Origin: Erodium maritimum
Lineage: Eukaryota; Streptophyta; Magnoliopsida; Geraniales; Geraniaceae
DNA length: 64,000 nucleotides
Assembly: GCA_963921825.1 (NCBI GenBank)
Contig: OY997594.1
Span: 7,135,001-7,199,000, forward strand
Direction: 5' to 3'
A program made the translations under genes and the position numbers. The notes under the pieces were generated by a model. It saw nothing but the letters and a program-made list of their open reading frames with translations, ran no database searches and was not told where the DNA came from. This document shows positions 2,059 through 57,171 of this stretch, one piece after another. Position 1 is the stretch's first letter. Each line of letters starts with the position of its first letter.

Positions 2059-2244
2059 TTAGTGTGTCTCTCCGGGGTGCCTGTCGGTGAGCCAGTTGAG
2101 AACCCCTCGGGACACTCCGTGGATCACGCCGTCAATCGGAGCTAAGGGAAAGAGCACCACATCAGCCACCTGGTGCAGTTGATCGATCCTATGCTCGACT
2201 CTGGTGGTGATCACGTCCTTAACCCGCTCGCTGGTCTTAGTCAT
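2059..2244 (-). CDS. Unrecognised 61-aa protein, copy A of a local family
   Basis: I do not recognise this family. The 61-residue product has no cysteine, signal peptide or membrane segment. Residues 3-30 are charged and look able to form an amphipathic helix (TSERVKDVI, EHRIDQLHQV). Residues 30-58 form the most conserved block (DVVLFPLAPIDGVIHGVSRG, then NWLTDRHPGE). The start is the first ATG after a conserved GGAAGC context found in copies A, C, D, E and F. A TATA box lies about 88 bases upstream. Copy D encodes the same protein. Compared with E and F, the C-terminus lacks four codons through an in-frame 12-base deletion. Synonymous-biased differences among copies support real coding; function is unknown. 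Confidence 0.75.
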   Translation of the reverse strand: MTKTSERVKDVITTRVEHRIDQLHQVADVVLFPLAPIDGVIHGVSRGVLNWLTDRHPGETH

Positions 2245-2560
2245 GCTTCCTAATTTGGCTTAATTAGCAACTACTCTTAATTATGTTGATCAAGTGTGAT
2301 TGTGATGCTTATAAACACACTTCAAGTCCTCTTTATATAGAGCTCTACTATCTAGCATCCTCAAATAGTAATTTCCATATAAACAGCATATACAGAATAA
2401 TAAAATGAGAGGAATATCTAGCAAAACATTGGTGCATGTGCATTTTATTTTAATAATGATGCTTTACTAAAGTGATGAATCCATTCTATATTTCTAGAAT
2501 GCGTTATATTTGTGTCAATCCATCACTCCAATACTTTCCCACATCAAATGTGGATTCTTT
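2245..2560 (-). promoter_or_regulatory. Promoter of small-gene copy A
   Basis: A TATATAAA box on the minus strand (2332-2339) lies about 88 bases from the ATG. The upstream region, with the GGATGCTAGATAGT block and a CATTCTAGAA-type palindrome, is conserved in all full-length family members. The presumed leader runs from about 2305 to 2245. No intron is evident. Confidence 0.65.
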
Positions 2561-2617
2561 CATTTGCATATCATTTCATTATTAAACAATAATGGTTTAG
2601 TACGATAAATCCGTCCA

Positions 2618-2960
2618 ATCTGATTTCCAAGGGTATATCATTCGTGAGGGAACACTTCACCTAAAATTTACAAAGTTTAAAATGACAACTGAAAATTGAT
2701 AAAAAAAGAAGCTTTCAATTGATCAGTATTGTTGGTGTTGGAGGGTTTGTAAGTGTGTCGGGAAGCAAGTTAAACAGTTAAACGTACATGGTTTTGGATG
2801 TTGCTATATCAGACACGACCTTTGTTACGAATTTGTAGAATAGAATGGATCGAGTGCTAGTCCCTCTCTTTGATCCGTCCGCTTAGCCATTCAGGTCAAT
2901 TTTAGTCATGCCCTTCCTCAGCCTAATGTCTATTAACGGTTCTCCTCACCAATGTTGCAT
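2618..2960. repeat. Diverged inner extension of the inverted repeat (left)
   Basis: This still aligns to the reverse complement of about 14705-15035, but with many substitutions and indels. Shared stretches include the segments around 2740-2765 and 2905-2920. It shows that an older inverted duplication existed before the nearly identical outer arms were created or homogenised. Confidence 0.7.
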
Positions 2961-3400
2961 TCGTTAAACGGATTATAGAAACAACTTATGAAAAGAGGTA
3001 AAGAGGGTAACAAAGTTTTATGGTCAACCGACTTTGTCGACACATAGCTCCAAACCATCACCCAAGTCCTCAGCTTGGCTGACGGAAATTCATGCCTCAA
3101 ACAACTAACAAATGCTCTGTTTTGATTTTGTTTTCAACCAATTTTTCTCCAAATAAACATGTTTTCTTAAAATACTTGCATGCAATAATTATTGTAGGGA
3201 AACCTCATGTTAAACATTAAATCATTTTTCTTTTGTCATTTCTTTTTCTAAGGGTTGGCTTCCATACAATATTGTATGGGTAAGTCAACATTTCGAATAG
3301 ACAATACTTAAAAATGTTATAAGACAGTGAACATGACACTTTACTGTTTGTTTCATTATTTTTTGATATATTGTTCTGTAACTTTAAATACTGAACTATA
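2961..3400. other. Intergenic, no gene recognised
   Basis: AT-rich sequence with no supported open frame. It ends in the left copy of the 10-bp target duplication (CTGAACTATA, 3391-3400) of the adjacent Mutator-like element. It is probably the distal 3' flank of small-gene copy B, displaced by insertions. Confidence 0.4.
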
Positions 3401-4740
3401 GAGGTGAAGTTTGATACAAACTATGTCTTAACCTAAACACCGTGAGAACCAATCTAAGTAATCTATTTTAAGAATGGAGGAATGAGATCCAATTGAATTG
3501 TTGACTTGTTGACCGCAAAAAGAACAACATTTTTTAGTAAGTGAGAAGAGTTTTTTAGTAAAGCTATCATTTTTTTTCCAATTCACTAATTTAATTTTTT
3601 CCGCTTCGTTTGAACTCTGATTGGCTTCAAACTTACGCCATTAGTTTTGTTTTTTCAAGGTCTTTCTATCAAGATCACTTATGAATATATTTTGAAGCAC
3701 GAAATTTTTTTTTATTTCAGGACTGATTTAAAAAAAATTATATATGATTATATATGGGTAATTTTTATCAACACTTTGCTCTAGATTTATCAATACTTTT
3801 ACACTGGTTTTATCAACACTTTACATTGGTTTTATCACCTCATTTCCAAAACTAATCATGATTTTATCACATCATCACGTGTTTTTTATGAACATCAAAC
3901 ACCAGGTTTATCATTAAATTACGTGTGTTTTATGACCCTCATCACATGCTTTTTTTGAAGCACGAAAAAAAGAATTATTTCGGGGCTGATTTTAAAAAAA
4001 TTATATCTGGATAATTTTTATCAACACTTTACACTGGTTTTATCAACACTGAACACTAGTTTTATCACCTCATTTTCCAAACCCGAACATGATTTTTATC
4101 ACCTCATCGCGTGCTTTTATGAACACTAGTTTTATCAACACTCAACACTATGTTTATCATTAAATTACATGTGTTTTTATCACCCCATCACATGTATTTT
4201 TTATCAACGCTAAACTCTAGTTTATCACACTTATTATCAAAATTGAACATGGTTTTTATCACCTCATTATTTGTTTCTTATCACCTCATTACATGTTTTT
4301 TATCGGCATTTAGCACTAGTTTGATACCTCTGATATAAAACATTTATTAGTGAAGATTTATGAACACTCAACATTATTTTTATCACCCCGATATACCTTT
4401 TTATTTTCGTGCTTCAAAATATATTCATGATTGATCTTGATTTAAAGCCCTTGTAAAAATAAAAATATTGGCGCAAGTTTGAAGCTAATCGGAGTTCAAA
4501 CGAATCGGGAAAAATTAAATTAGTGAATGAGTGAAGAAAAAAATGGACACTTGTCCACATGACACCATGCTATTACAATTATGCCCTTGCTTGTGTGAGA
4601 AAGGATGAAAGTGGCGTGAATTTGGGTGGAATTGCAGTGGTGATGTGACATCATGGTAAATGTTGGATCTTAGATGTGTGTGGCTAGGATTGGTTCTCAC
4701 GGTTCTTAGGTTAAGAGTGGTTTGTAGCCGATTTCACCTC
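3401..4740. mobile_element. Non-autonomous Mutator-like element with long TIRs
   Basis: The ends are GAGGTGAAGT (3401) and its inverted partner ending ...TTCACCTC (4740). Inverted similarity continues inward for roughly 300 bases, through blocks near 3440/4700, 3590/4520 and 3690/4425. A perfect 10-bp target duplication, CTGAACTATA, flanks it (3391-3400 and 4741-4750). Long TIRs and 9-11 bp duplications are typical of Mutator-like elements. No transposase is encoded. The core (about 3750-4400) is an irregular array of short TTTTATCAACACT-type units. Confidence 0.85.
3750..4400. repeat. Irregular short-unit array inside the Mutator-like element
   Basis: Variants of TTTTATCAACACT and TTTATCACCTCAT recur every 20-35 bases, separated by short variable text. 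The array is centred between the inverted repeats. Spacing and unit sequence are irregular, which excludes a CRISPR or a simple satellite. Internal tandem units are known in some Mutator-like elements; here they could bind transposase or result from slippage. Confidence 0.6.
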
Positions 4741-7077: not shown

Positions 7078-7263
7078 TCATCTGAAGACTGGTATGCGAG
7101 TGCTACCAGGATGTCCATTTATCTGTGACTGTGGCTGTGGACTAGTGTTCTCTTGAGGTCCATTTGCGGGTGGAGTGGCCTCTCCTGGGTGCCTGTCAGT
7201 GATCCAGTTTATAACTCCTCTTGACACTCCATGGATCACACCCTCAATTATGCCAAAAGTCAT
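7078..7263 (-). CDS. Diverged small-gene copy B (N-terminal half deleted)
   Basis: The 61-residue frame keeps an ATG in the conserved context but lacks about 30 codons that encode the charged N-terminal helix in other copies. It resumes at the conserved block (GVIHGVSRGVINWITDRHPG) and then runs into a proline- and glutamine-rich tail unlike any other copy. The TATA region upstream is weakened (TATACA around 7349-7356). It could be a neofunctionalised variant or a decaying copy that remains open by chance. Its 3' flank is interrupted by the retroposon at 4790-6784 and the Mutator-like element. Confidence 0.45.
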   Translation of the reverse strand: MTFGIIEGVIHGVSRGVINWITDRHPGEATPPANGPQENTSPQPQSQINGHPGSTRIPVFR

Positions 7264-8757: not shown

Positions 8758-9014
8758 TGTTAGAATTAAACTAGTCATGCCACCATTTGTACAGAACATC
8801 AGATGTTCTTCATTTTGTGCGTGTGTGGTAGGTAGTGGTAGGTTAACTTAGTTCCTTGTCAAACTTTTCCTACTTGTTTTCATACTTGTTTGTATGACTA
8901 TAAATACAAGCCAATACCAATGTAAAAGACACAACACTCATATTGCAACTCAGCAAAGTTCAAAGCAATTGTTTTTTATTTCTTTTGTTCCCAATATTAG
9001 CTTGAGAACCAACA
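8758..9014 (+). repeat. 5' LTR of copia element 1
   Basis: This 257-bp LTR has TG...CA ends. A TATA-like TATAAATAC motif at about 8899-8907 would place transcription start inside the LTR. About ten substitutions separate it from the 3' LTR. Confidence 0.9.
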
Positions 9015-9016
9015 AG

Positions 9017-9030
9017 TGGTATCAGAGCCA
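9017..9030 (+). other. Primer-binding site, copia element 1
   Basis: TGGTATCAGAGCC, two bases after the 5' LTR, is complementary to the 3' end of plant initiator tRNA-Met. Confidence 0.9.
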
Positions 9031-9039
9031 CGATTCATC

Positions 9040-10209
9040 ATGGACGATTCCGTCAGTACGATCAAGGCGAGCAACACCGGGAGTACCTCTACCGCAGTCG
9101 GCTATGAGCGCGAGCTGGCGGTGACGAGGTCGTACCCTGCGGTGGTCAGCACGGCCAACTTTCCCATCCTTTCTCGTACCAACTACGGAGAATGGGAAAT
9201 CCTCATGGAGGTCGGGTTACAAGCGAGAGGCTTGTGGACAGCAATCCAAGGCGAGGAAGATCTCACTGACGAAATCGTATATCGCAACGATCGCTCCGCA
9301 ATGGAGGTGATCATGCGCTCGGTTCCGACCGAGATGATCTCAACAATTGGGAAGAAGAAGACGGCACACGAGGCATGGGAGGCTATCAAAACCATCCGCA
9401 TGGGGTCAAGCCGAGTCCGCGACGCGAAGGCTCAAACACTCCGGCGCGAGTTCGAGCGCTTCACACACAAGGACGGCGAAACAGTCGATGAGTTGGCAAT
9501 GTGACTTACTGGCATCGTGGCAAATCTCGGTGTTCTCGGTGATGAGGTACCAGAGAAGCAGGTGATGCAGAAGTTCCTTCGTATAGTTCCAAGGCGTTAT
9601 TCGCAGCTCGCATTATCGATCGATAGTCTCGTCGACCTCGATACAATCAACATGGAGGAATTGACGGGACGCTTCAAAGCAGCGGATGAACGAATGGAGC
9701 TGAACGAAGAAGAGGAGGGGGTCATGAGGCTCCTCCTCACGGAGGAAGAATGGCGTAACCGCATGGGACGACGGGACCATGGCGGCACAAACGCCTTTCC
9801 CAAACCACGGGGAAAACACCGCAACGTTGAAAAAAAGGACGGTGTTGACAACACCAGGAAGCCAAGGAAGTGCCGCTACTGCAACATGGAAGGGCATTGG
9901 GTCCGTGACTGCCGGAAGAAGAAGAGGGATGAGGCTGATGACGAAGCTCACCTTGTTCAGGCAGATGACGAAGAACTTGAACTACTGATGGCTCAGGTGA
10001 CGTCAGTTGCAGCTACACTTGCCAAGGCGGAGAGCGCCAAGCAAGAGCGGGATGTCCAACACGACCGTTCACGAATGAGGACTCAACAAGCTCATGATGA
10101 CATATCAAAGACCCAAGCTGACTCAAGTACAAGTCAGGCCAAGAGCGACGGAGCGACTGAGGTACCGGTCCAAAGGATAGTATGGACGCCTTGTTGGAGG
10201 CGAAATTAG
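9040..10209 (+). pseudogene. copia gag with one in-frame stop
   Basis: The 389-codon gag frame starts shortly after the primer-binding site (MDDSVSTIKASN). It contains a UBN2-type capsid region (about residues 45-240) and a CCHC zinc knuckle at about 9870-9920 (CRYCNMEGHWVRDC), followed by a lysine-rich stretch. A single TGA at 9502-9504 breaks it after residue 154; the frame is otherwise open on both sides, consistent with a CGA-to-TGA change. The product would be the structural protein of virus-like particles. The tail (after about residue 310) is acidic and glutamine-rich. Confidence 0.85.
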
Positions 10210-10299
10210 GATGAAGAAACGTCCGAGGTACTTACCCAAAGATCTAGGTGGACACCAACATGGGCGAAGGAGTGCCCGAAGCGTGGGAAACCTAGTGTC

Positions 10300-11994
10300 A
10301 TGCTAAAGGACAAGAAAGTGCCGGATAAGCATGTCAATATGGGAAGTTCTTCCCTCGATGCAAGGGCAAAGAAGATGGCCAACCACGTCGTGGAGAAGGG
10401 AAGAGTGGAACAAGGAAGGATGGATCCTGCTACTCACGACGAGGAACACACTGAGGTCAACGTTGGGGCGATGGACGACCAGAAGGATCCGGTGTGGTAC
10501 ATGAACACGGGATGAAAGTTTGCTTCCAAATCATCAACTACCCACCTCACTGGAGCATACCAGAAGGTGGCTGAGGCGGACGAGGCAGCGGACTTGGGCG
10601 CAGCCTACGGCATGACGGGACAGTCGTTTTGGACTGAGGGAGCAGGCGCTGCAGAGCAGAAATCGTTCTCAGTCGAGAACACCATGGTGGAGTTCACTCC
10701 AACACCAGTACGAGCTCCATCCTTAGGGGGAGAAGCCTCTGGGACATCCCCAGAGAAAGAAGTACTACCAGAACGAGTTGAAGTAGAATAAATTTCTCCG
10801 GCAACACCACGTGACGTAGGTACGGCGGATCAGCCAAGTCAAGGAGGAGTGGGAGCGGTCTTTGTGTCCTCACCGAAAAACTCCACTCCGGATGCAGAGT
10901 TAGTGGGCGAGGAGGCTCCTTGCCACTATCGCAAGCTTGACGATATCGATTCAACAACAAGAGAGAGCAATGCAGTTGCGATGACGATGACCGTCGATCG
11001 CAACTTACCATCTCGGGCAACCACCGATTCATACCCATTCAGGTTCGATGAGGTGCAGAAACGCCTCAGTTTGATTGAGAAATCCATGGACGTATCCAAG
11101 GCCTTGATGAGTGAAACCCTGGTTATCAAGCCGAAGAACGTGCTTGAGCATCTTTGCTGGACAATGTGCAACCGTGGCCTTGCGATCCATCTCGAGTCTA
11201 TGGCCTTTCATCACAAGGTCTGTGTAGGGGTGAACGGTTGCACCGTTCATGTAGCCGAGTTCTGGGAACGGGAACGAGTTCGGGAAGCTCTGAAGCTTGC
11301 CCCAGACCCTGCGGATCTCGCCTACGAGTCCAGTAATTATGAGGAGGCAGAACCATACAAAGAATGGCGTAAGGAAATCCTCAAAGAATGCATATACAAT
11401 GTAGGTGGGAGGTCCCCACGGAAGAGAAGGAACGATATGGAAGTGGTTGGTCATGCCGGCTACACGAGTCCTACTCTAGCTAGCTACCGAGAGTCTAGGC
11501 TAGATGGGATCATTGGTTTAGCACCACAACCGTTGGTGCACCAATCTATGGTGGCACCCCGTCCGTTAAATGAGGCTAAAACCTACTTGGGATGTCGTGG
11601 TCCCCGAGCAAGGACTAATCATTCCCGTAGTGCTTGTTCGATAGCACGTTTTCGAGTATTCGTCCGAGAGAAGACTCGCCCTCCTCCGCGACCGCCTAAT
11701 GATGGTGAGTGGCTTCTGCTCGGTGACCTACTCGGCAAGGAGGCTGATGTCGTCACACTTTACGTGGACAACAAATCAGCAATTCAGTTATGCAAGAATC
11801 CGGTCTTTTACGACCGGAGAAAGCACATTGGGACACGTTACCATTTCATTAGGGAATGCGTCGACGACGGTAAAATCATCGTTGAGTATATCAAAACCGA
11901 TGATCAGCTGGCGGACATAATGACAAAATCACTTGGTAGAGTGAAATTTCTAGAGCTACGCTCGAAGATCGGTATCGTTAATATACATGCCTAG
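10300..11994 (+). pseudogene. Rearranged copia pol: protease vestige, unknown insert, RNase H
   Basis: The segment near 10485-10515 reads VWYMNTG and then stops, resembling the copia protease start (WYLDTG). The stretch 10567-10791 is the proline/serine-rich linker usually found between integrase and reverse transcriptase. An open frame then runs 10849-11994. Its last 100 residues are a typical copia RNase H tail (VDNKSAIQLCKNPVFYDRRK, DQLADIMTKSLG). The preceding 280 residues, including RFDEVQKRLSLIEKSMDVS and EFWERERVREALKLA, match no copia domain I know. Reverse transcriptase motifs are absent, so the element cannot be autonomous. The unknown part may be captured host sequence. Confidence 0.7.
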
Positions 11995-12008
11995 TTTAAG
12001 GGGGAGAT

Positions 12009-12270
12009 TGTTAGAATTAAACTAGTCATGCCACCATTTGTACAGAACATCACATGTTCTTCATTTTGTGTGTGTGTGGTAGGTAGTGGTAGGTTAACTT
12101 AGTTCCTTGTCAGACTTTTCCTATTTGTTTTCATACTTGTTTATATGGCTATAAATACAAGTCAATACCAATGTAAAAGACACAACACTCATATTACAAC
12201 TCAGCAAAGTTCAAAGCAATTGTCTTTTTATTTCTTTTGTTCCCAATATTAACTTGAGAACCAACCAACA
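12009..12270 (+). repeat. 3' LTR of copia element 1
   Basis: This 262-bp LTR follows a polypurine tract. It ends in a short internal duplication (CCAACCAACA against CCAACA in the 5' copy), which accounts for most of the length difference. Confidence 0.9.
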
Positions 12271-12740: not shown

Positions 12741-12941
12741 ATGACCAATACGAGCGAGCGGACGATTATCAACGGAATGGAGTGCAAGATCGACCAGTAC
12801 TTGGACAAGCTGGCTGACGTGGTGCTGTTTCCGTTAGCTCCCATTGACGACGTGATGTATGGAGTGTCTAGAGGAGTCCCCAACTGGCTCACTGATAGGC
12901 ATCCCTGGAGAGACCACACCACATGCACATGCTGTTGGTGA
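12741..12941 (+). CDS. Small-gene copy C with altered C-terminus
   Basis: This 66-residue frame begins at the ATG in the conserved GGAAGC context; an upstream in-frame ATG at 12702 lies in the leader. The middle block is conserved (LADVVLFPLAPIDDV, GVSRGVPNWLTDRHP), while the N-terminal helix is diverged and two residues shorter. A single-base insertion after the HP codons shifts the frame and produces a new cysteine-rich end (TTCTCCW), unlike the cysteine-free family. A partial duplicate of the last codons follows at about 12945-12970. It may be functional, or a recently frameshifted copy. Confidence 0.5.
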   Translation: MTNTSERTIINGMECKIDQYLDKLADVVLFPLAPIDDVMYGVSRGVPNWLTDRHPWRDHTTCTCCW

Positions 12942-13125
12942 CGGCTCACTGACAGACATCCCATCTCAATAAACGTTGTCGTTAGTTTTGGATGGGGAAA
13001 GTCCATAATACCATCAGCAAAAAATGTTAGTCCACAAATAAAACAACTATGTCGGAGTATGCAGGCACATATGTATCCTCAATAAAGAATATATCTTGCG
13101 TTGCTTAGCTCCTCCTTTAATTAAT

Positions 13126-13513
13126 GGGATAACTTTGTTTCCTAACCTTTACAAACGTTTCATTATCAGATCCTAACTAAGGTCAACGTTTGGTCTCAAT
13201 TCCTAACATAATAGGTTTGGAATTTCTCAGAAACTATAACAAGTCGTCTAAACTCATGATTCCGTCAACTCATCCAAGCGTTGTCGTTGTTGGCGTACAT
13301 TACTCATGGTGCCTTCCTCGACGTTGAACTTATCCTCGTTCTCAAGCAACCGAACCCAATGCTCGACGAGTTGACGGAATCGTGAGTTTGGATGGTTTTT
13401 TATAGTTTCTGAGAAATTCCAAACCTATTATGTGAGGAATTGAGACCAAACGTTGGCCTGCGTTAGGATCTTATAATGAAACGTTTGTAAAGGTTAGGAA
13501 ACAAAGTTTTCCC
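13126..13513. mobile_element. MITE, family 1 (copy 1)
   Basis: Terminal inverted repeats begin GGGATAACTTTGTTTCCTAA and pair with the end at 13513; the inverted similarity runs more than 100 bases inward. The 388-bp element has a close relative at 61640-62025, which carries a clear 9-bp duplication. Here no duplication is visible, and the right flank does not match the small-gene flank expected, so the right junction was probably rearranged. Confidence 0.8.
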
Positions 13514-13515
13514 TT

Positions 13516-14704: not shown

Positions 14705-15035
14705 ACATGTACACTCCCCGGTTAGTGATAAGGAGAACCCCAAAACATCTAGGTGAGGAAGGGCATCACCCAAGTTGATATGGAAAGGCTGAGGGGACCG
14801 ATCAAAGAGATGGCCAACGTCCGATCTATACCATATAAATCCGTAACAGAGGTGGTGTCTGACTTAGAGGCATTTGAAACCATATCTGCCTACTTGTCTA
14901 ACTTGCTTCCCGACACACAAAGACTCACCAACACCAACGATAATGGTCAACTAAATGGGTATCGTCTCAGTTTTCAATTGTCATTTGAACTTTCCAATCT
15001 TTAACTAACGTGTTCTGAGTGATATACACTTGGAA
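14705..15035. repeat. Diverged inner extension of the inverted repeat (right)
   Basis: Partner of 2618-2960 on the opposite strand; alignable but clearly diverged. A short open frame here (14753-15004) has no recognisable product and its counterpart in the left copy is not open, so I do not call it a gene. Confidence 0.7.
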
Positions 15036-15092
15036 TGGACGGATTTATCGTACTAAACCATTATTGTTTAATAATGAAATGATATGCAAATG

Positions 15093-15408
15093 AAAGAATC
15101 CACATTTGATGTGGGAAAGTATTGGAGTGATGGATTGACACAAATATAACGCATTCTAGAAATATAGAATGGATTCATCACTTTAGTAAAGCATCATTAT
15201 TAAAATAAAATGCACATGCACCAATGTTTTGCTAGATATTCCTCTCATTTTATTATTCTGTATATGCTGTTTATATGGAAATTACTATTTGAGGATGCTA
15301 GATAGTAGAGCTCTATATAAAGAGGACTTGAAGTGTGTTTATAAGCATCACAATCACACTTGATCAACATAATTAAGAGTAGTTGCTAATTAAGCCAAAT
15401 TAGGAAGC
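15093..15408 (+). promoter_or_regulatory. Promoter of small-gene copy D
   Basis: The TATATAAA box is at 15314-15321, 88 bases before the ATG. The sequence equals that of copy A's promoter. The upstream CATTCTAGAA...ATGGATTCATCAC block is shared with E and F. Confidence 0.65.
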
Positions 15409-15594
15409 ATGACTAAGACCAGCGAGCGGGTTAAGGACGTGATCACCACCAGAGTCGAGCATAGGATCGATCAACTGCACCAGGTGGCTGATGTGGTGCT
15501 CTTTCCCTTAGCTCCGATTGACGGCGTGATCCACGGAGTGTCCCGAGGGGTTCTCAACTGGCTCACCGACAGGCACCCCGGAGAGACACACTAA
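15409..15594 (+). CDS. Unrecognised 61-aa protein, copy D
   Basis: The protein is identical to copy A's. Compared with copy E over the shared codons, I count seven synonymous differences and one amino-acid change (V/I at residue 16), plus an in-frame 12-base deletion that shortens the C-terminus from ETTPHAH to ETH. That pattern is expected under purifying selection. The start follows the conserved GGAAGC context, with no upstream ATG in the leader near it. The product is small, soluble-looking and cysteine-free; no known domain is recognised. The neighbours are the TRIM and AT-rich flanks of the same arm; no operon-like partner exists. Confidence 0.75.
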   Translation: MTKTSERVKDVITTRVEHRIDQLHQVADVVLFPLAPIDGVIHGVSRGVLNWLTDRHPGETH

Positions 15595-16651
15595 TAAAAC
15601 AACGACTATGTTGTTGGAGTATGCAACGTATAAACAATAAGGAATATGTCTGACGTTGTTCATCTCTTCCTTCGTTTTTAGTTAATATGTAACAATCTAT
15701 GGTGCGATCTGTGATGTGTGGATCGAGTTGAGGTATTTTGTACCTCTTCTTCTCATAATCAATAATACAATAATTTGCACTTATCTGCTTGTTTTTATTC
15801 AAAAGTAACATTTCATATGAATGTTTCTATCCCGTGTCATAATATGAAGATACAAATTATTAGGATATATAGAATCAGAAATAGGTTTCGCGTAAAAATC
15901 ATACTTTATGGTACAAATATGAATTCACCTCCAAACGCTAAGAACGGACATATATTAAGAAACATGAAGACAAAACAAATCACAACAAAAGATAACGAAA
16001 ACATGAAGAGTCACGGTCCAAAGCTAACTCCCTCCATGACCCCTTATAAAGCCACATGACTCCATGACTCCGGTAATATTTAAGGTTTGCGGGACCTCCG
16101 CTACAAGGGTTCGGATGAGATGGACTTCAAGAAGATTGAAGTGGTACTGAGTTCGCATTATAGTAGCGGGATTTCTAGCCCCACTGAGGACATATGAGTG
16201 CTTTTTTCTTTTGTTGATGCTTTTGATGTTTGTTTTATTCCTTACTCGTTTAAGATTTTTGGGTTATCCGTTTGTATTTTTTGCTTCGTTAATATATTTA
16301 TCTATCGTTGATAATAAAAATACACTGGAGTGGGGTGACTGGTGAGGATATTATCCCCGGTCAACTCTTACAAGCCAGTGGGCAATATAATTCGTTATGC
16401 GTTTGAAGAATTCGAGTTGTAGATTCTCGAGTCTATCTACGAGCTCTATACAATCTTAAACTAATATGCCTGAAGGGGAAAAAAGATATTTCTTTAATTG
16501 ATGACGTTGATCAATCAAACTCTATGGATCACCTAAGTGATCAAGTCGTTATCGTTGCTGATTGAGTAACGACCAGTTTTGATAAGCTTGTGGTTAATGA
16601 GAATTTAGAGATCATCTATGGATCAAATAATATCGAATAAGTGAGAATCAC

Positions 16652-16978
16652 TGTAAGAGGACCAACTCAACTAAAAGCTCAAGTTGATAGTTGAATGCCC
16701 AATTATAGTTATTTCTAACGCGCGTCCTCACGGACAAGCCCGTTTACGAGTTTGGAGGTGAATTATTTAGAAGAGAGAGATGAGCTCATTGAGAAGATTG
16801 ATAAGGGCTAGCCCATTTTAGGTAAATTTGATAAATAGAGAATAAATTAGAATTTTCGTAGAGAGTGGGATTTGAACCTCTGTCCGTAAGGTACCAAGCT
16901 CTGATACCATATTAGAGGATCAACTTAACTAAAAGCTCAAGTTGATAGTTGAATGCTCATTTAAATTATATTCTAACA
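16652..16978 (-). mobile_element. TRIM element, mirror copy in right arm
   Basis: This is the reverse-complement counterpart of the TRIM at 675-1001, duplicated with the arm rather than inserted independently. The primer-binding site reads on the minus strand (end near 16909). The GTGAT target duplication is preserved on both sides. Confidence 0.9.
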
Positions 16979-17885
16979 ATCACTATGTAAATATTCACTT
17001 GATGATCAGATAAAAGTCTTAGCTTATCCATCCGTAACGATTGAAGATAAATCTTCTAAAAGATTAACTAGTAGATAAATTTAATAAATTATTCGAAATA
17101 TATAAATAAAAAATTCTACTATTTGTTTTGACAGTTCTCTCCAATCATATTTCACGTGATTCTAGTACAGGATTCTAATCAAAAACAGGAAAGAGTTTTT
17201 TTTTTTTTTTTTATGTGGTCTACTTTAAACTTATTCGTAAGTCATGTCAAAACAGAGACTCCATCTAGAAAGTCACTATAATCAAATCTACTATATATTT
17301 AGACAATGCTTTCCAACATATTTCACATGATTCTAATATAGGATTCTAATCAAAAACTGGGAGCATTTTTTTTAATATCTCAACCACTTTAAATTTATCC
17401 CTGAATAATGTCAAAACAGTGACTCTTAGAAAATAAATAGAATCAAATCACCGGCATCATGATTTGCTGATATATATCCAAATCCATATTCCAAGGAAAA
17501 ATGTATTTCATCTCATATATATGCTTTTAGCATAAAATGTTACTGTAAGTTCGAGCAAGAAATACCTTTGTGTTGTTTCTATGAAAACTGCAATAGATAA
17601 AAAATGTAATAACTTATTGGACAAATGATAAGACATTTAAAAAAATGCTGAAAAATGTAATTTGAACTAAGGCAAGCTCTCATGTTATGTCGTGTATTTA
17701 TTCTGAGAAAACCCTAGCCTTAATCTTTATGGTGCTCCATACCTATTTCATTATCATCGATATCGTCGACCTATCCTTCGACTTAGTCTCATCGGCATAT
17801 GCTCTTGCCATACAGTTCTCTATATGTCTCTAACAGCCTTACCCCCACGCTCATCTTCTGATGTTCCAAGCCCCTTAAAGGCACG

Positions 17886-20420: not shown

Positions 20421-20618
20421 TACTCCCAACACTTGTTCTCATGTATCGTGTTTGGTTACGTGACTAATTTAAAAAAAAATCAGTAATGTACGAGATTCAA
20501 GGAAATTTTTCTTATGATATCAGATGAACCAAACCACTTTATTTCTCGGGGAAAAAGAACCAGAGCACGTTTGAATTTTGATCGGTCTGATACCGTTGGA
20601 TTGGCGGTTGTACTCAAA

Positions 20619-20772
20619 CAGTAACCCATTCTACAATGGAATGTATTCGTGACTTTATTAAAGCATTGTTGGTAACACACAAATGAACAAAATCCAAATT
20701 ATTCTTCACATGCATCAATGTTTTTTCTACATATTCGTCTTATTATGTTCGGTGGCCCGTGCTGTTTAAATA
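20619..20772 (+). repeat. Orphan copy of the small-gene promoter
   Basis: The block from AGTAACCCATTCTACAATGG to about 20772 repeats the upstream region of copy E found again at 21036-21125. No coding part follows; it is cut by a MITE-like segment at 20773. Confidence 0.65.
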
Positions 20773-21278: not shown

Positions 21279-21476
21279 ATGACCAAGACCAGCGAGCGGG
21301 TTAAGGACGTGATCACCACCAGAATCGAGCATAGGATCGACCAGTTGCACCAGGTGGCTGATGTGGTGCTCTTTCCCTTAGCTCCGATCGACGGCGTGAT
21401 CCACGGAGTGTCCCGGGGGGTTCTCAACTGGCTCACCGACAGGCATCCCGGAGAGACCACCCCACATGCACACTAA
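21279..21476 (+). CDS. Unrecognised 65-aa protein, copy E
   Basis: Full-length family member ending ETTPHAH. Compared with copy F, I count nine base differences, eight synonymous and one replacement (T/N at residue 14); the promoter is also nearly identical. The predicted layout is a charged amphipathic helix (residues 3-30), then a hydrophobic, proline-containing block (VVLFPLAPIDGVIHGVSRGV) and a conserved NWLTDRHPGE. The conserved block has no predicted transmembrane length. The function is unknown. Copy E is followed by a tandem duplication of its 3' flank and then by the minus-strand tail of a LINE-like retroposon. Confidence 0.78.
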   Translation: MTKTSERVKDVITTRIEHRIDQLHQVADVVLFPLAPIDGVIHGVSRGVLNWLTDRHPGETTPHAH

Positions 21477-21577: not shown

Positions 21578-21900
21578 GGTGCAATCTATGGTGTGTAAAT
21601 CGAGCTGAGGTATTTTGTACCTCTTGTTCTTATAGTCAATTATACAATAATTTGCACTTATATCTACTTGTTTCTATTTCAAGTAACACTTTTATGTATG
21701 TTTCAATCGTCCCAGATAATATCTACACATTAGGATATAAGTAAAATAGGTTTCGCGTAATAAAATCATCTAAGGTGCAATCTATGGTGTGTAACTCGAG
21801 CTGAGGTATTTTGTACCTTTTGTTCTTATGCTAAAATAATACAATAACTTGCACTTAAATCTACTTGTTTCTGTTTACGGTAACACTTTAAATGCATGTT
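21578..21900. repeat. Tandem duplication of the copy E 3' flank (period 196)
   Basis: The segment starting GGTGCAATCTATGGTGTGTAA at 21578 recurs at 21774 with moderate divergence, including the GAGGTATTTTGTACCT motif and CTACTTGTTTCT. Confidence 0.75.
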
Positions 21901-21914
21901 TGGATCCTGTTATT

Positions 21915-24157: not shown

Positions 24158-24158
24158 G

Positions 24159-24171
24159 TGGTATCAGAGCC
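24159..24171 (+). other. Primer-binding site, copia element 2
   Basis: TGGTATCAGAGCC one base after the 5' LTR; complementary to initiator tRNA-Met. Confidence 0.9.
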
Positions 24172-29190: not shown

Positions 29191-29224
29191 GGAGTTTAGA
29201 TTGAAACTAGGGCAAGTGGGAGAT

Positions 29225-39115: not shown

Positions 39116-39364
39116 ATATATGTCTCCCCTCTTTACATGCCTATTTGTGTATATGTTACTTAGTCGTACTATTTGCATTTGGTACACAAGACCTGTTCGG
39201 GTCCTGTTATGTTGTAGGAGGAGAATGTAATTATATTCAAATATAACATAATATACTTCATTATATAGAATTTATTTTATATTTCACAATTTCCTTTGAT
39301 CAGTAAAGTACAAATATTATAAATACTATCTTTTTCAAAGATAGCAAAAATACCACATTCCAGT

Positions 39365-39447
39365 TCTTTTTTTTTTTTTGATAAGCTCAAAAATTTATTA
39401 TTAAAACCGAATCCGAAAACGGTAAACTCTGATTCAAGGAGAAACAG
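39365..39447 (-). mobile_element. Short LINE tail insertion
   Basis: A T tract and GATAAGCTCAAAAATTTATT lie between imperfect direct repeats (AGATAGCAAAAATACCACATT and GGATAGCAAAATACCACATT, differing by one A), the likely target duplication. It lies in the 3' flank of defensin-like gene 1. Confidence 0.65.
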
Positions 39448-39490
39448 GATAGCAAAATACCACATTCGAGTTGATCCTAGATCTTTACTC

Positions 39491-40248: not shown

Positions 40249-40316
40249 ATTTAACTATATATGATATAAAAATAAAGGAGAGCGATAAAAAGATACATAT
40301 GATATAGTTGAGTGAA

Positions 40317-40324
40317 TATTTATA
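40317..40324 (-). promoter_or_regulatory. TATA box of defensin-like gene 1
   Basis: TATAAATA on the minus strand, about 69 bases before the ATG. The matching position in gene 2 reads TACAAATT. Confidence 0.6.
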
Positions 40325-40599
40325 CAATATGTGATTTGTGGGAAACGGATTATCATAAGTTGTTTTATTATGAGCATTAATTTACTCTATTATTATTCGT
40401 CTGTTTTACAAAAATAGAGAAAAACTTAAAATGATGTATCAATACGTGAATGTTATCCTAAAACTTCAACTGTATTTTTATTTATACTTATAACGGCCTT
40501 CTACTGTCATAAATACAAGAACCAAGTATATTATTTAAGAAAAAAAAATATTTACGTATATTTTAGTTTTTGAATTGTAAATATATAAGAGTATCATAG

Positions 40600-46371: not shown

Positions 46372-46689
46372 ACGTACGCAGCAAGCAAAAAATCTTCCCC
46401 ATGAGTCATGGTCTAACCATTTAGCTTAGTCAACAATCTAAAAAAGTAAAGACATGAACCGTTTCCTTGCTTCCATTTTCACATTCGAACTGTCCGTTAT
46501 TTTCATTTCACTTCCTACCTAAATAGTAACGTAAGTTTTACACAAAACAACGTTAAAATGCGTTAAAACAATGTTGGTTTCTACAAATTGTTGAGCAAGC
46601 TACAGATAGAAAGTAAAACGACAGACAGTTAGGATGTGAAAATGTAAATCCAGAAACAATTCTTTTCCGCAGTTCTCCCTTATTAGTAT

Positions 46690-47525
46690 TTGGTAAACAA
46701 GGGCCGTTTGGATCATGTTATTTTGTAGGAAGAGAATGTAACTATATTCGAATTATAACATAATATATTCACTGTTTAGAATTTATATACGTATAATCGT
46801 TGATTTTTTTTCATATATTTTACAATTACAGAAGAGCAATTCTACCATAATTCGACCTCACAGTCGACATGTATACAACGGCAGCGTTTTGGGATCCATT
46901 CGGCACAACTCGCTGTGGTATCGATTGCGTTTTTAAATTTACTAGCACACAATTCTAAGCATTCGTTTTTGCCAAAGCCAAATTTCTCCCAGAACTCAAT
47001 GCGACACTCGTCTTTGGTGGTATATTCATGCACAGTCTTACAACCATCGGTCAAAGGAACAATATGTGGAGCTACATAAATATTAGTCAAATGTCAGTAA
47101 CATGATCCAACTCATGTAATATATGTAATTAGGTGAAAATCGTAGATAATAAGACGTAAAGATTCGTTAAACACTTTTTGCTTAAACCTCTAATGAAACG
47201 GGATAGTGAAAGAACAAACCCGCAAAGACGAGAACAAGGCAAAAGATAAGAACGGACGAAAGCTTAACCATATTTAGCTGTAGATAATAAAAAAAAATAG
47301 AGCGATAAGAATACGCATATGATAGTCGAGCGAAGTAATTTGTACAACATGTGAATTGTAGAAAAACGAATTATAATAAGTTATTTTCATTATGAACATT
47401 AATTTACTTGATTATTACTCGTCCGTTTTACAAAAAAAAGTTAAAATAGTGGATCAAAACTTGAATGTTATCCTAAACTTTAATTCGTTTTTATTTATTT
47501 ATAACGGCGTTCTGCAATCATAATT
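46690..47525. repeat. Duplicated segment carrying defensin-like gene 2
   Basis: Partner of 39160-40520 in the same orientation, 7 kb away. Confidence 0.85.
46842..47271 (-). CDS. Defensin-like (DEFL/LCR) secreted peptide, gene 2
   Basis: Two exons on the minus strand: 47271-47220 (52 nt) and 47071-46842 (230 nt), with a 148-nt GT-AG phase-1 intron. The product has 93 residues. The signal peptide (MVKLSSVLIFCLVLVFA) and the start of the mature region (APHIVPLT) match gene 1 closely. Beyond that the mature peptide has diverged strongly while keeping eight cysteines (GCK, DEC, NECLELC, ASC, RCRC, VDC). Conserved leader and diverged mature part are typical of this family. The TATA position of gene 1 is degraded here (TACAAATT), so expression may differ. 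Both splice sites are intact. Confidence 0.83.
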
Positions 47526-47790: not shown

Positions 47791-47799
47791 AAGACGAGT

Positions 47800-49770: not shown

Positions 49771-49803
49771 ATTATTATTATTATTATTATCATCATCATC
49801 ATC
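49771..49803. repeat. Trinucleotide microsatellite (ATT then ATC)
   Basis: About seven ATT units followed by five ATC units, immediately left of the L1 target duplication. Confidence 0.85.
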
Positions 49804-50303
49804 TAGTCGATCTATACTTGAATTATTCAGATTATACGAAAAGGCAGCCGGCCCTAGGCGTAGCGGGGACTTCGGCAGCGGCGCGTGAGGTCAACCGGCG
49901 ACGACGGCGAGTTCTGCGTTGGCGGCCGGTCGTGCGAACAGGCCGGTGAAGGTACGTTTTTGCACCCTTTTGTGATTCCTGGGTCTTTTGGGATCGGTAG
50001 CCGGAGTGGGGAGTGAGATCCCGTCCGAATTTGTGCCCCACGGTGGTTCTACCGGCGTGGTAGGTGGTGTACTGGTCGGCGTTGGGTTTGGCAGCCGAGG
50101 CAGGGGTGGACGGGACGGCCGTTTGGGATTTCGGCGGACCGTGACGACGTTAGGGGGTGTTGCAAGTTGAAGGTGACTGTTTTCCGGTCTTGTGGATCCG
50201 AGGACGAGCAGCTCTGGGCGGAGGAGTTGGACGAGTCCGGCTGTTGTGAATCCACGTTTCGTCGATACAGGTACCGGGGCCAGACGGCAGGTCGGAGCAT
50301 TGG

Positions 50304-51125
50304 GGGATTAAATTCCTATCTTGGAATTGTAGGGGTTTGGGCAAACTAGCCACCGTGGAGTACCTGAAGGGGGTGATACGGCGCAGGAAACCGCAGGTGA
50401 TCTTCCTCAGTGAGACGTTAGCTCGGAAGGGGGAAGTAGATATCCTGAAATTGAAGACGGGATTCCCGGGCGGTTGTGAAGTTCCGACGGTTGGACAGAA
50501 AGGGGGGCTGATTCTGCTTTGGACGGCGGAGATGAGGGTAACGCCGTACCCTAGTGAGGAGCGTTTTATTGACGTGGAGATTGTAGGGCCGAATGGTGAG
50601 GGCTTCCGTTTTACGGGAGTGTATGGGGAGGCGAACAGAGAACTACGGTGGTAGACGTGGGATATGATTCGCTTCCTGGGTGCGAGGACAGGGGCCTCGA
50701 GAAAATGGATTTTAATGGGAGACTTCAATGGCATCCTACGCAATAAGGAGAAGCGGGGTGGTCGCCGGTATCCGGAGCGCCTGATCGCAAAATTCCGGAC
50801 TGCAATGCGGAACGTGGGAGTCTCCGACGTTCCAATCCAAGGGTACGGGTTCACGTGGCATAGTGGCAGTGAACCGGAGACACGAATGGCAGTCCAGCTG
50901 GACAGGGCCTTAATGTCGCGGGAGATGAGGACGTTATGGCCGGAGGCCCACCTGGCCAATCTGGGAATCTCGACGTCGGACCATCTGCCAATCTTACTGG
51001 ACTCGGAGAGGCGTGTGGAACCTGTGGGGTCGCGCCAGTTCCGTTTTGAGAATATCTGGGCAGAGGACCTGGAATGTGGCTTGTTGATTCAATCTAGTTG
51101 GGGTGCCCCGGGAGATCGGATGTAA
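50304..51125 (+). pseudogene. L1 endonuclease domain (one stop)
   Basis: An apurinic-endonuclease-like domain that nicks target DNA for LINE insertion. Visible motifs in order are LSWNCRGLG (about 50316-50342), the catalytic-region LSETL (about 50405), GDFNGIL (about 50720) and SDHLPIL (about 50980). One in-frame TAG at 50652-50654 (after NRELRW) interrupts the frame, which continues in the same phase. Near 51115-51125 the frame ends through a one-base shift into the reverse transcriptase frame. Confidence 0.9.
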
Positions 51126-54100
51126 GATTCAGGAGACAGGCTTGGCATTGGATAACTGGGGAAAGGAGGTGTATAATGCACTTGCCCGGAAGATAGCACG
51201 GTATGAAAAGGATATGCTGTGGTTGAATGGTAAGGAAGACCGGCCGAGTATTCGGCGGCAAAGAGCTTTGCAGAAACTTTATGTCAAAGCCCTAGAGCAG
51301 AAGGGGGAGTTCTGGAGGCAGCGGGCCAAGCAACACTGGTTTACGGATAGCGATCAGAACACGAAGTTCTTCCAAGCCTCGGCGTCACAGAGGAAGAACC
51401 TAAACAAGGTATCGGAATTGCGTGATGGGGATGGTAACGTCCTTACCTGGGACTCGGGATTGGGGGATCATATACTGGACTTCTATAAGGTGCTGTCTAG
51501 GAGGACGAGGGGGGATGGAGTGAACTTCCCGAAATTCCGTCAGCAGGTGACTGAGGGGCAAAACAGAGCCCTAATGGGGGAGGTGACGTCCGAGGAGGTT
51601 CGGGATGCGACTTTCTCTATGGGCCCGAATAAATCACCAGGGCCGGACGGTCTCAATCCGTTCTTTTATCAAAAGTACTGGGGGACGGTTGGGGAGGACG
51701 TCACCAGGTGCGTGAGACGGATCTTCGTAGGGGAGGACATCCCACGGGAGCTGAACAAGACTATACTGGTTCTGATCCCGAAAGTGGAGTGCCCAATGTC
51801 GCTCAAGGATCTTCGCCCTATAGCTCTGTGTAATGTGGTCTTCAAGGTGGTGTCTAAGGTGGCAGCAAATAGACTGAAAGGGGTGTTGGGTGGACTCATT
51901 TCTGACACTCAGGGAGCGTTCGTCCCGGGGAGATCTATCCAAGACAACATAATCCTGTCATACGAGACGCTACATCATCTACGTAACAAAAGTCAGGGTA
52001 AGGAAGGCTGGGTGGCTTTGAAGCTAGACATGAGCAAGGCCTATGACAGGGTAGAATGGGGTTTCTTATGGGACATTATGAGAGGCTTTGGGATGAGTGA
52101 GGAATGGATCCATCTGGTCCGACGTTGCACATACTCAGTTACGTACAATATTGTGGCGGGTGGTCAGCAGGCAGGTTTTGTGCAGCCAGAAAGGGGGATA
52201 CGGCAGGGAGACCCGCTCTCTCCATATCTCTTCCTATTTTGCATGGAGGGTTTCTCCCGCCTGCTCCAGGGAGCGGAGAGTAGGGGGGACATCCACGGGG
52301 TTAGGATAGCTAATGGAGCCCCGGCATTGACCCATTTGTTCTTTGCGGACGACTGCTATGTGTATTGTAAGGCGGTCCCAAAAGAGATGACAAAAGTGCG
52401 TACTTACCTGGGAATGTTTGAGGAGGCTTCGGGGCAGGTGGTGAACCAGACAAAGTCGTCCCTCTTCTTCAGTCACAATACTCCGGAACATCGGCGGTTG
52501 AGCGGTGTGCAGATTTTGGGGATTCCGGAGGTAAACTCCCCGTCCTCCTACTTGGGAATACCGAATATGATGGGTAGGAGCCGGAAGCAGAGTCTACAGT
52601 TTGTTATGGATAAGGTCCTCCGGAGAATCAGAAGATGGGATGGTAAATTGCTAAATGGGGCAGGTAAAGAAGTGCTAGTCAAGTCGGTCTTGCAGGCGAT
52701 TCCTACTTATACGATGTGTGTAATGCGGATCCAAAAGGGGATGCTGGAAAAGATGAATGTGGCTCTGGCTAAATTCTGGTGGAAGTCGGGGGGGCCGGAA
52801 GGAAAATGGGTGATCTGGCAGTCATGGGCGAATATGTCACGGCCAAAGGAGGAAGGGGGTATGGGGTTTAAGAATCTGTACGACTTCAACTCGGCCTTAT
52901 TGGGGAAGCAATTGTGGAAACTCGTCACGGACGAGTCGAGTCTTGTGGCTAAGGTTCTCAAGGCCAAATGCTACCCGGGGAACTCGGTGTTGGAGGCAGT
53001 GGGGAAACCGAATCAGAGTTATATATGGCAGAGTTTGCTGTCAGTACAGGAGTTGGTCCGCCGCGGAGTGCGACGGTCTATTGGGCCAGGTACGGAGACT
53101 TCAATTCTGGGACACCCCTGGTTGACGGGTGTGGAAGCAAGGGTGCACCTAGGAGCTCCAGGTCTTGAAGGTAAGTTCGTGTCGGAACTGATGCTGTCAC
53201 ACGGTAGAGCGTGAGACGAGGGGAAAATCCGTTCCCTGGTTGGAGGGGAGGACCAGCAGGCGATCTTGGCAGTCCCGATTAGTCGGACAGCGATCCGGGA
53301 TTCCTGGTACTGGTCGGGAGACTACTTGGGTCAATACACGGTGAAATCGGCGTACGCCTTGAACCAACAGGACCAGGCCTCTGCCCAGGCACACCAGGAA
53401 ATAGGGCCGGCGATATGGAAGCTGGAGGTGATGCCAAAGGTTAAATCGTTCCTATGGCGTACGTGTTCGGGCTGTCTTCCGGTAGCGGAGAACCTGAGAC
53501 GACGACGGGTGGACATAGTGGCAACATGTCCGGTATGCCAGGGTGGAAACGAGTCGGCTTTTCACCTACTGGTCCATTGTCCAGTGGCTGCCGAATGTTG
53601 GGCGAAGTCGGGGCTGTCCCTGCCTCAGGGAACCCAGACGATCACAGAGTGGTTGCTCCGAACGATTAGTATTAACCCACCGGCGAAAGGGGGTCTGATT
53701 GGGTGCCTGTTATGGGAAGTGTGGAAGGCACGAAACAAGGTAGTATGGGAGAGTAAGGCACAACCAGCAGCTGGTATCTTCCAGACAGCGTCCCACCTCC
53801 AGCTAGGGTGGCTGGAAGCAAGACGAAGGAAGCAACAGGCCCAGGCCTGCCCGCGACAACATCAGGCTAGGGGAGCGGAGGCCTGGATCCGGCCGGGTGC
53901 AGGCTCTTGGGCGATTAACACAGACGGAGCTCTCTTCGCAGCAGCAAATAAAGTGGGAACAGGATGGATCTGTAGAGACGACAGGGGGTTTCTCAGGGGA
54001 GCTCGCTCTACGTCCTTCCACGGGGCCCAGAATCCGGGCCTGGTGGAAGCCTTTGCGATTCGGGAAGCGTTGTTGTGGCTACAACAATTCCCGCTCCAAC

Positions 54101-54363
54101 GAACGGTGGTTCGAAGTGATTGTAAGGTCATAGTGGATATGATCAAAAGGGGTGGGGGATTACCCTCACCTCTCGGGACAATCGTTACTGATTGTTTTTC
54201 CCGTTTATCTAAACTCGAGTGCGTGCAGCTCGAATTTGTGAAGCGGACAACGAACAAAGCGGCCCACTGGCTTGCCAGAGCGGCTTGTTCTAACCCTGTC
54301 TGGGAGTGGCAAGGGGGTCATGTCCCCGAGCCTCTTCAACATATCATTGTTGCCAAAAATTAA
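51103..54363 (+). pseudogene. L1 reverse transcriptase, zf-RVT and RNase H (one stop)
   Basis: A long frame (51103-53214, 703 codons) carries the reverse transcriptase: GPNKSPGPDGLNPFFYQKYW, LRPIALCNVVFKVVSK, KLDMSKAYDRVEW, QGDPLSPYLFLF and the catalytic FADD. A single TGA at 53212-53214 precedes a same-phase 365-codon stretch with the zf-RVT motif (VKSFLWR, CPVCQ, FHLLVHC) and a C-terminal RNase H (INTDGALF, EAFAIREALLW, RSDCKVIVDMI). It normally copies LINE RNA at the nicked target. With the stop, the RNase H would be lost. Confidence 0.92.
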
Positions 54364-54404
54364 TAAATTTGCATTTCTCTCAAAAAAAAATCTAGTCGAT
54401 CTAT

Positions 54405-54953
54405 TTTAAATTTATTCCTACAACTGTCAAAATATGAACATCTTCATCTAGAAAAAACTTGAATAATTTCAAACCTACTATTTGTTTTGACAATGCTTTC
54501 AATCATATTTCACATGATATTCTAAAATAGGATTCTAATCAAAAACGGGATCATTTTTTTTATAGTATCCGGTCTACTTTATATTTATCTCTAAATAATG
54601 TAAGAACAAGGATTCCATCTAGAAAGGCACTACAATCAGATTACTAAATTGGCATCGTGATTTGCTGATACATATATATTCAAATTCACATTTCCAATGC
54701 AAGCAAAAATGTGTTAATTAAAGTAACCCATTCTAGAATGGAATGGATTCATGACTTTATTAAAGTATTATCAACTATATATATTCTGTGGCATGTGTTG
54801 TTCAAATTAAAAAAAGGTCTGCATGAACATTACTATTGCAGGATGCTAGATAGTGGCTATATAAAGAGGAGATGAGTTGTGTTCTATAATAATCACAATC
54901 ACACTTGATCATCGTAATAAAGAGTAGTAGCTTGTTAAGCCAAATTAGGAAGC
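54405..54953 (+). promoter_or_regulatory. Upstream region and promoter of small-gene copy F
   Basis: The TATATAAA box is at 54858-54865, about 95 bases before the ATG. The proximal 250 bases are nearly identical to copy E's promoter. The distal part (54405-54640) is the family's AATCAAAAAC-containing repeat, which the L1 element split. Confidence 0.7.
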
Positions 54954-55151
54954 ATGACCAAGACCAGCGAGCGGGTTAAGGACGTGATTACCAACAGAAT
55001 CGAGCACAGGATCGACCAGTTGCACCAGGTGGCTGATGTGGTGCTCTTTCCGTTAGCTCCGATCGACGGAGTGATCCATGGAGTGTCCCGAGGAGTTCTC
55101 AACTGGCTCACCGACAGGCACCCCGGAGAGACCACCCCACATGCACACTAA
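54954..55151 (+). CDS. Unrecognised 65-aa protein, copy F
   Basis: Full-length, cysteine-free member ending ETTPHAH. It differs from copy E by one residue (N for T at position 14) despite nine nucleotide differences. The same start context (GGAAGC before ATG), TATA distance and 3' flank are kept. The conserved block VVLFPLAPIDGVIHGVSRGV and NWLTDRHPGE are unchanged. Its upstream region was hit by an L1 insertion more than 500 bases away and its 3' flank by a LINE-like tail, but the proximal promoter is intact. Function unknown. Confidence 0.78.
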   Translation: MTKTSERVKDVITNRIEHRIDQLHQVADVVLFPLAPIDGVIHGVSRGVLNWLTDRHPGETTPHAH

Positions 55152-55447: not shown

Positions 55448-56105
55448 CATTTTTTTATAAGCGGAAATTTATTAAGCTATTCTCCTGAGATGGAAAAACA
55501 AGACAAATAGAGACACCGAAAAAACGGCCTCATTATCAAGACAAAAAAGAAGCTCAGAAGAAGTAACAAACAAATCTTACAAGAACCAACATCTCCCACA
55601 CGGAGGAAACGAACAAAACACAACCAGAAACCTCCAAAAACAACACAACAAAAGCACAATCCAAACCGCACTAAAGGGAAACAACCCCGGCCACCACAAG
55701 GCAACAAAAATTTGAAACGAGCTTAACTGAACTAATCAAACCAAATCTGGACCATCACCAAGGACAAACAATCTAGTCTCATCTTGAACCCCAACCTAAG
55801 AACTCAAGGACTTATCCATGGGAGTAAAACCCATGGCCAAGCAAGAGTCCAAGGCACGATGAACAAACTTACCATCCGAAATGATCGAAACCACATCGCC
55901 TTTATCCTTGCTCATAGACCTGGGTTGAATCTCATAAAAAAAATATGTGACCTTCTTCTTCTCTTGACCTTTAAGCCTCCTCTTCTTCTTCCGACCCTGA
56001 TCCTTAACTGAGAAATCATCCTCAATAAAAGTGTTGTCAGTAGATGGGCGAGGGTCGTAAACCTCAACAAACGGTGTTGTCACACACTGATGAACTGTTG
56101 GAGGG
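55448..56105 (-). mobile_element. LINE-like retroposon fragment (minus strand)
   Basis: It begins with a T tract and AAGCGGAAATTTATTAAGC on the plus strand (tail of a minus-strand insertion) inside the 3' flank of copy F. A/C-rich on the plus strand. A 106-codon minus frame (55796-56116) is lysine-rich and unrecognised. Confidence 0.5.
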
Positions 56106-56110
56106 ACAAA

Positions 56111-56440
56111 TGTCACGCCCCAAATCCGGTTTTGACCGGACTCGAGACACGAACTAAGAACATTAATTAAATGATAAGAAAAAAAGATTTAATAAAGCAA
56201 GTTCCATGAAAACTTAATTGAAATCCAAAATCAAGAGTCAACAGCTCTACAAACAGAAAACAGAACATATAGTTGATACAAAGGCAGTACGTCTCTAGAA
56301 TAAAAATTCCCAAGACCTCAAGGAGCTCCCGAGCCTTGAGACCACATCTAGATCTACTCATCAAGGAAACCTGTACAAACGGTAAACAAGAAAGGGAGTT
56401 GTAAGTGGTTGTGGTCCCCAATAAATAGACGTTATTCTCT
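56111..56440 (-). mobile_element. Gypsy-like LTR end (minus strand)
   Basis: It starts TGTCACGCCCCAAATCCGG and continues with text that is the reverse complement of the end of 33530-35643 (ACCGGACTCGAGAC). Only one end is recognisable. Confidence 0.5.
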
Positions 56441-57009
56441 TATTCTGCCTCACCCCCCATCTGAGAGAATAACCAAATAGAGAGCGTCTATTTTATTGGA
56501 AGACCAAAACTACGGTTGAGGAGATTCATCGTTCATCGTTCATCAATGGCATCAAGTAAGTAACTATTCCGCTCTTATTTATTTGTGTATTCCTTTTAAT
56601 TCAACAAAACTTTTATAGAAATATGATTTAGGGTTTATAAATCGTTATTGGGTTTCGTCTATATAATTCCTAAATCATAACGCAGATGACCGAGAGGCTC
56701 TAGATGACCAGTGCAGCACGCCCTTCGATGAAGAACCCAAACTCCAAAGCCACACATGCACTATCGTCGAGAACCAACGCCGACCAAAACCATTGAGTCT
56801 CTTCACACCGATAACAGGAAAATGGACGAGAACACGAACGGAAAAGGGAAAAAGGGGGAGGGGAAGGGAAGGAGGGGGAGGTCACCACAGACAACGTCCA
56901 GGCCATGACGTCGACGACGAAGGAAGAGATAGGCGGGTAGGGTTATAAAAGAGGCTTCAGAGCTTTTGGTTTGATTGTTTCCTTTGAGGAAAGTCCTATG
57001 GCCGCCATC
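56441..57009. other. No gene recognised
   Basis: Contains a short ATG-containing stretch near 56546 (CATCAATGGCATCAAGTAAG, then GT-rich text) that could be a first exon, but no continuation was found. C/T-rich open frame on the minus strand at 56700-56906 without a domain. Confidence 0.3.
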
Positions 57010-57171
57010 AGTGTGTGGGATGGTCTTTTCTTGATCCCTTCAGTTACCCAGTTCAGATCTCCTATGGACACTCGATGGATCATGCCGGCCATTAGAGCTA
57101 ACGAAAAAAACACTAGGTCTACAATCGGTCGATCCTACCTTTTATTCTATTGGCAATCGTGGCTTTCATGA
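57010..57171 (-). pseudogene. Decayed small-gene copy G
   Basis: On the minus strand, TIANRIKGRIDRL aligns with the family's ITNRIEHRIDQL. After a frameshift, VDLVFFSLALMAGMIHRVSI and DLNWVTE align with the conserved block. The N-terminal codons before residue 10 are altered, and the upstream region (57172-57245) still resembles the family leader (GTTTATAAGCACCACAA). It lies 470 bases downstream of the TenA_E gene. It is clearly non-functional and shows that the family is older than the near-identical copies. Confidence 0.7.

Follow-up and report, generated by a model that had tools for sequence, protein, structure and literature searches.

Does a stretch of repeated DNA in Erodium maritimum hold a family of functional, very small genes, or does it hold copies of some other unit in which a short frame is open? 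We examined a 64,000-nt window (contig OY997594.1 of assembly GCA_963921825.1; positions 7,135,001 to 7,199,000 of the forward strand), for which a first-pass annotation had proposed a young, locally amplified, seven-locus family of cysteine-free proteins of 61 to 65 amino acids. The locus is probably a local cluster of putative nuclear plant genes that lack introns and encode a lineage-restricted microprotein of 61 to 65 residues.

Seven loci in different states of preservation

Self-comparison and a profile search within the window found homologous DNA at all seven loci (nhmmer E values of 2e-20 to 4e-263), in units of about 0.8 kb each. Since six of the loci (all but copy G) had served to build the profile, only G (2e-20) and two further fragments represent matches from outside the training set. 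The loci and fragments are as follows.

2059..2244, minus strand: copy A, intact 61-aa frame with DNA identical to that of D
7078..7263, minus strand: copy B, probable pseudogene with a 29-codon core kept at 7162-7248
12741..12941, plus strand: copy C, diverged, with cysteines and a frame that shifts near its end
15409..15594, plus strand: copy D, intact 61-aa frame with a 12-base in-frame deletion near its end
21279..21476, plus strand: copy E, intact 65-aa frame
54954..55151, plus strand: copy F, intact 65-aa frame
about 57240-57007, minus strand: copy G, decayed and frameshifted
20586..20747, plus strand: upstream-region fragment of an additional copy, upstream of E (nhmmer E, 6e-17)
21766..21910, plus strand: partial second copy of the 3' flank of E (nhmmer E, 4e-29)

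The two fragments had been overlooked by the first-pass annotation. The seven copies lie inside 57 kb of the window, as the proposed local clustering implied, and their orientation is mixed (A, B, and G on the minus strand; C, D, E, and F on the plus strand). Homology therefore extends to the whole proposed family, while a complete, cysteine-free frame of 61 to 65 codons is present at only four of the loci (A, D, E, and F); because A and D are one sequence, these encode three distinct intact proteins. None of the four displays the conserved cysteine pattern of cysteine-rich plant peptides. We rejected a description as seven equal copies, given the identity of A and D and the damage to B, C, and G.

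The damaged copies differ in what they retain. In B, codons 3 to 36 of the family frame are replaced by three other codons and a different tail follows, so its length of 61 aa is coincidental. Its 29-codon remnant differs from F at 10 of 21.7 silent sites and 6 of 65.3 replacement sites (dS, 0.72; dN, 0.098) and is more distant from E (dS, 1.48; dN, 0.098). Copy C encodes 66 aa, including a cysteine in its body and three more in the frameshifted tail, and the label "cysteine-free" thus fails there; two of its indels keep the frame (9 bases deleted, 3 inserted), and a single base added after codon 55 shifts it near the end. The repeat at 13125-13514, whose start lies within the 3' flank of C, has a partner of about 390 bases at 61639-62026 (93% identical in direct comparison and 80% in inverted comparison); since it is alike in both comparisons, the repeat itself is palindromic (i.e., foldback-like). 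For G, the decay reported near 57010 was confirmed, on the minus strand; the plus-strand open reading frame (ORF) at 56998-57171 is accidental. Over 29 codons, G is separated from D, E, and F by dS of 0.68 to 1.06 and dN of 0.28 to 0.29. The term "young" accordingly suits D, E, and F, and above all the identical A and D, and does not suit the family as a whole, because B, C, and G lie at high silent distances (0.40 to 1.48) from D, E, and F. Silent distances within the family reach about 1 (1.48 for B versus E), and, at typical plant rates, a silent distance of about 1 would mean tens of millions of years.

Copies A and D sit inside a near-identical inverted tract.

1..2616, minus strand: left arm, holding A and cut by the left edge of the window
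15037..17655, plus strand: right arm, holding D, of the same tract

The arms show 2 substitutions in 2,616 aligned bases, which accounts for the identical coding DNA of A and D and means that the two copies are not independent. Outside the near-identical tract the arms still match, at 76% over 314 bases. This step in identity is best read as a recent conversion between older duplicates or as a recent duplication; the tract could also be an assembly error. An ORF of 74 aa lies beside D (14780-15004, plus strand), and a relative with stops lies beside A (2870-2745, minus strand); the two are 52% alike over 44 positions and form an older duplicated coding-like stretch for which Pfam returned no match.

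Constraint on the frame, and the signals upstream of it

We counted silent and replacement changes by the Nei-Gojobori method and assessed significance by the Fisher test. Copies E and F differ by 8 silent changes and 1 replacement (dN/dS, 0.034; P = 4.3e-5), the same count as originally reported, and D and F differ by 12 silent changes and 2 replacements (dN/dS, 0.042; P = 4.7e-7). For D and E we obtained 8 silent changes and 1 replacement (dN/dS, 0.034; P = 4.9e-5), a count that assumes that the 12-base gap falls on a codon border and that includes one gap-dependent silent change (codon 60). The gap placement of MAFFT gives 8 differences, in agreement with the 7 silent changes and 1 replacement, plus an in-frame 12-base deletion, reported previously. 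As these pairs share sequences, the three comparisons carry the weight of roughly two independent contrasts. When neutral evolution of E-F and D-F was simulated under four mutation models, all eight runs of 20,000 yielded P ≤ 0.00045. Indel events point in the same direction: the coding region and the 3' flank hold 1 (in frame) versus 11 between D and E, 1 versus 9 between D and F, and 0 versus 2 between E and F. By simple arithmetic, the silent differences between E and F (8 of 46 sites) are in modest excess over those in the 3' flank (35 of 315). We dropped the idea that the silent sites of E were converted from D, because the informative sites interleave and that excess is modest. The low dN/dS, the Fisher tests, and the simulations agree on purifying selection at the protein level, as had been proposed, and the constraint on the protein sequence is real. 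On extension to more copies, the low ratio held for all three pairs among D, E, and F (0.034 to 0.042) and was higher for C, whose dN/dS of 0.18 to 0.36 against D, E, and F over 54 codons marks it as less constrained or decaying.

The frame is accompanied by a recurrent upstream arrangement. The TATA-box motif TATATAAA precedes the ATG in A (-95), D (-95), E (-103), F (-96), and C (-64), while B has TATAAA at -89 and G has no TATAAA within 160 bases of its ATG.

15314..15321, plus strand: TATATAAA of D, 95 bases before the ATG

The start context AAATTAGGAAGCATGAC is likewise found in A, C, D, E, and F, with one mismatch in B and several in G, so that the shared promoter and start context described in the first-pass annotation stand for all copies but G, with B as a near match. 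In five of the six copies examined (A, B, D, E, and F), the frame is closed upstream by an in-frame stop at -18, and the 70 bases before the start contain no ATG; in C the in-frame stop is at -60 and two upstream ATGs are present. The G+C content is 0.57 to 0.59 in the coding regions of D, E, and F and 0.53 in that of C, and 0.31 to 0.33 in the flanks of E and F. Over the 140 alignment columns before the ATG, divergence is 7 to 15% in all 10 pairs among copies B to F, below the silent-site divergence in the deeper pairs; promoter constraint or a mosaic history by recombination may explain this.

Relatives, neighboring elements, and alternative explanations

The protein encoded by F found no match in a set of 5.8 billion predicted proteins that includes NCBI and UniRef plant proteins, in a search that required shared 5-residue words and covered lengths of 0.55 to 1.75 times the query; near records may be missing from the set. 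A six-row family alignment, run against the same set with E values up to 10, gave 240 candidates, none of which scored. No recognizable domain had been noted previously, and Pfam assigned no family (best E, 0.24); we took its matches to PHAT (E = 0.24) and Mim2 (E = 0.3) as chance. There was no convincing match in NCBIfam or PDB, where NF038086 (E = 0.16; one of six members only) and three PDB matches (E = 0.16 to 1.5) were likewise taken as chance. None of 24 pattern matches in viral contigs or of 6 in genome contigs was confirmed, plasmids gave no match to the family, and the peptide strings of the family were not found in the literature. The structure model consists of one long helix, predicted at low confidence (pLDDT, 64; pTM, 0.32), and its hydrophobic moment did not exceed that of shuffled sequences (P = 0.19 to 0.55 over four segments), i.e., gave no indication of an amphipathic helix. 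By eye, the protein has no hydrophobic N-terminal signal.

The window is rich in retroelements, and a LINE and LTR elements separate the family copies.

49801..54404, plus strand: LINE upstream of F, with matches to RVT_1, zf-RVT, and RVT_3
8758-12270: LTR retrotransposon with a TTCAG target-site duplication, LTRs 96% identical, and a copia-type gag match
22470-30912: LTR retrotransposon with a CAGGC target-site duplication and LTRs 98% identical
17219..17507, plus strand: spacer segment, 1.8 kb downstream of D and 74% similar to 54400-54715

Because the LINE has its own exact target-site duplication of 15 bases (49801-49815 and 54390-54404), it is an independent insertion and not the carrier of F; the named sources of its relatives among the 120 matches listed are plants (e.g., Cannabis, Humulus, and Apium). 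Carriage by the two LTR elements was rejected, since they lie between copies and have target-site duplications of their own. The partner of the spacer segment lies 238 to 553 bases before the ATG of F, and the match is a possible trace of an older tandem arrangement; given an internal repeat in the segment (about 180 bases) and the lack of a clear continuation on the far side of the LINE, it may instead be a dispersed repeat. Two ORFs related to TENA/THI-4 lie beside G (57645-57938 and 58382-58597, minus strand; Pfam E of 1.8e-16, above the cut-off, and 0.031, below it) and are likely exons of a host gene. A further local duplication links 39170-40512 and 46681-47523 in three pieces of 79 to 85% identity.

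These surroundings bear on the alternative already raised in the first-pass annotation, namely that the unit is a nonautonomous or cargo-bearing mobile element whose frame serves the element, with selection acting on a master copy. The retroelement-rich region, the copies in both orientations, and the similar outer limits of several pairs (near -300 and between +450 and +499 relative to the ATG) would fit such an element. However, no terminal inverted repeats of at least 10 bases were detected in the two of seven units scanned (D and F), where the scan returned one internal 14-base palindrome in F and none in D. The 5' limits are uneven, and beyond about -137 E and F share only a block of 49 to 51 bases with A, B, and D; the homology between A and D extends far beyond the unit; target-site duplications of their own flank the adjacent LINE and LTR elements; and the copies found within the window are clustered. 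Since the unit ends differ between pairs, no target site is definable for the family. We consider this explanation disfavored and unlikely.

It is quite improbable that part of a larger gene was captured and duplicated to form the unit, leaving dead copies whose selection signal was inherited from the parent. Constraint between paralogues can be inherited in this way and many copies (B, C, and G) are damaged, but the intact frames are closed on both sides by stops, including that at -18, a TATA box is present and the start context kept, E and F are both intact at a dS of 0.2, and no larger relative emerged from Pfam, NCBIfam, or PDB, although the protein search reached only to 1.75 times the query length. 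A conserved noncoding RNA, or a stretch of regulatory DNA, in which the frame is open by accident would account for the conservation of the proximal upstream region, and one antisense frame is indeed partly silent-biased (7:2, 5:4, and 8:6 silent to replacement). Yet the bias is strongest in the sole open forward frame (8:1, 8:1, and 12:2; terminal stop only), whereas the same changes give 0 to 1 silent in the remaining two forward frames; the antisense frame contains one or two stops and was rejected as coding; and Rfam returned no match at the gathering score. We regard this possibility as very remote.

A candidate family of constrained microproteins

For the preferred reading as a cluster of microprotein genes, the copies would have arisen through local duplication, retrotransposon insertions would later have pushed them apart, and a recent event, either inverted duplication or gene conversion, would have rendered A and D identical. 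The mixed orientation counts against plain tandem duplication. Transcription would start about 30 bases past the TATA box, and translation would begin at the first ATG. Least certain is the role of the product: it may be an intracellular, mostly helical small protein that acts by binding a partner, with copy number setting the dose, although we find this doubtful.

By analogy, the nearest studied kind that we can name is QQS (Qua-Quine Starch) of Arabidopsis thaliana, which is described as a 59-aa protein without significant similarity to other sequences, encoded amid transposable elements; its origin is given as recent and de novo, and purifying selection is reported (dN/dS, 0.5868) (PMC3623765). 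As so described, QQS and the Erodium family are alike in being short, in having no significant match (for the Erodium family, in the searches described above), in lying among transposable elements, and in being under purifying selection; in contrast to the recent, de novo QQS, the Erodium family is multicopy and more strongly constrained: its intact copies show a dN/dS of about 0.04, and it includes relatives that are much older. According to the work on SPADA, many small plant genes escape gene prediction (PMC3924332). The small-peptide families treated there (one or two exons) are likewise short, with few exons, multimembered, and easily missed, whereas SPADA was tested mainly on cysteine-rich families and the intact Erodium copies have no cysteine (PMC3924332). 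If expressed, the Erodium family would belong with the lineage-restricted plant microprotein genes.

More broadly, and tentatively, the window may hold a one-lineage protein family of undescribed fold and function that has stayed near invariant over the long term, in a cluster repeatedly duplicated, broken, and rehomogenized amid retrotransposons. The usual view is that orphan genes are under weak constraint; QQS, with a dN/dS of 0.59, is an example. If our reading is true, the Erodium protein would be an orphan microprotein under strong constraint, and since intact, damaged, and relic copies adjoin one another, the cluster would make it possible to study directly how genes of very small size persist or disappear. 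It would also contribute a protein from a size class that is often missed by gene prediction (PMC3924332).
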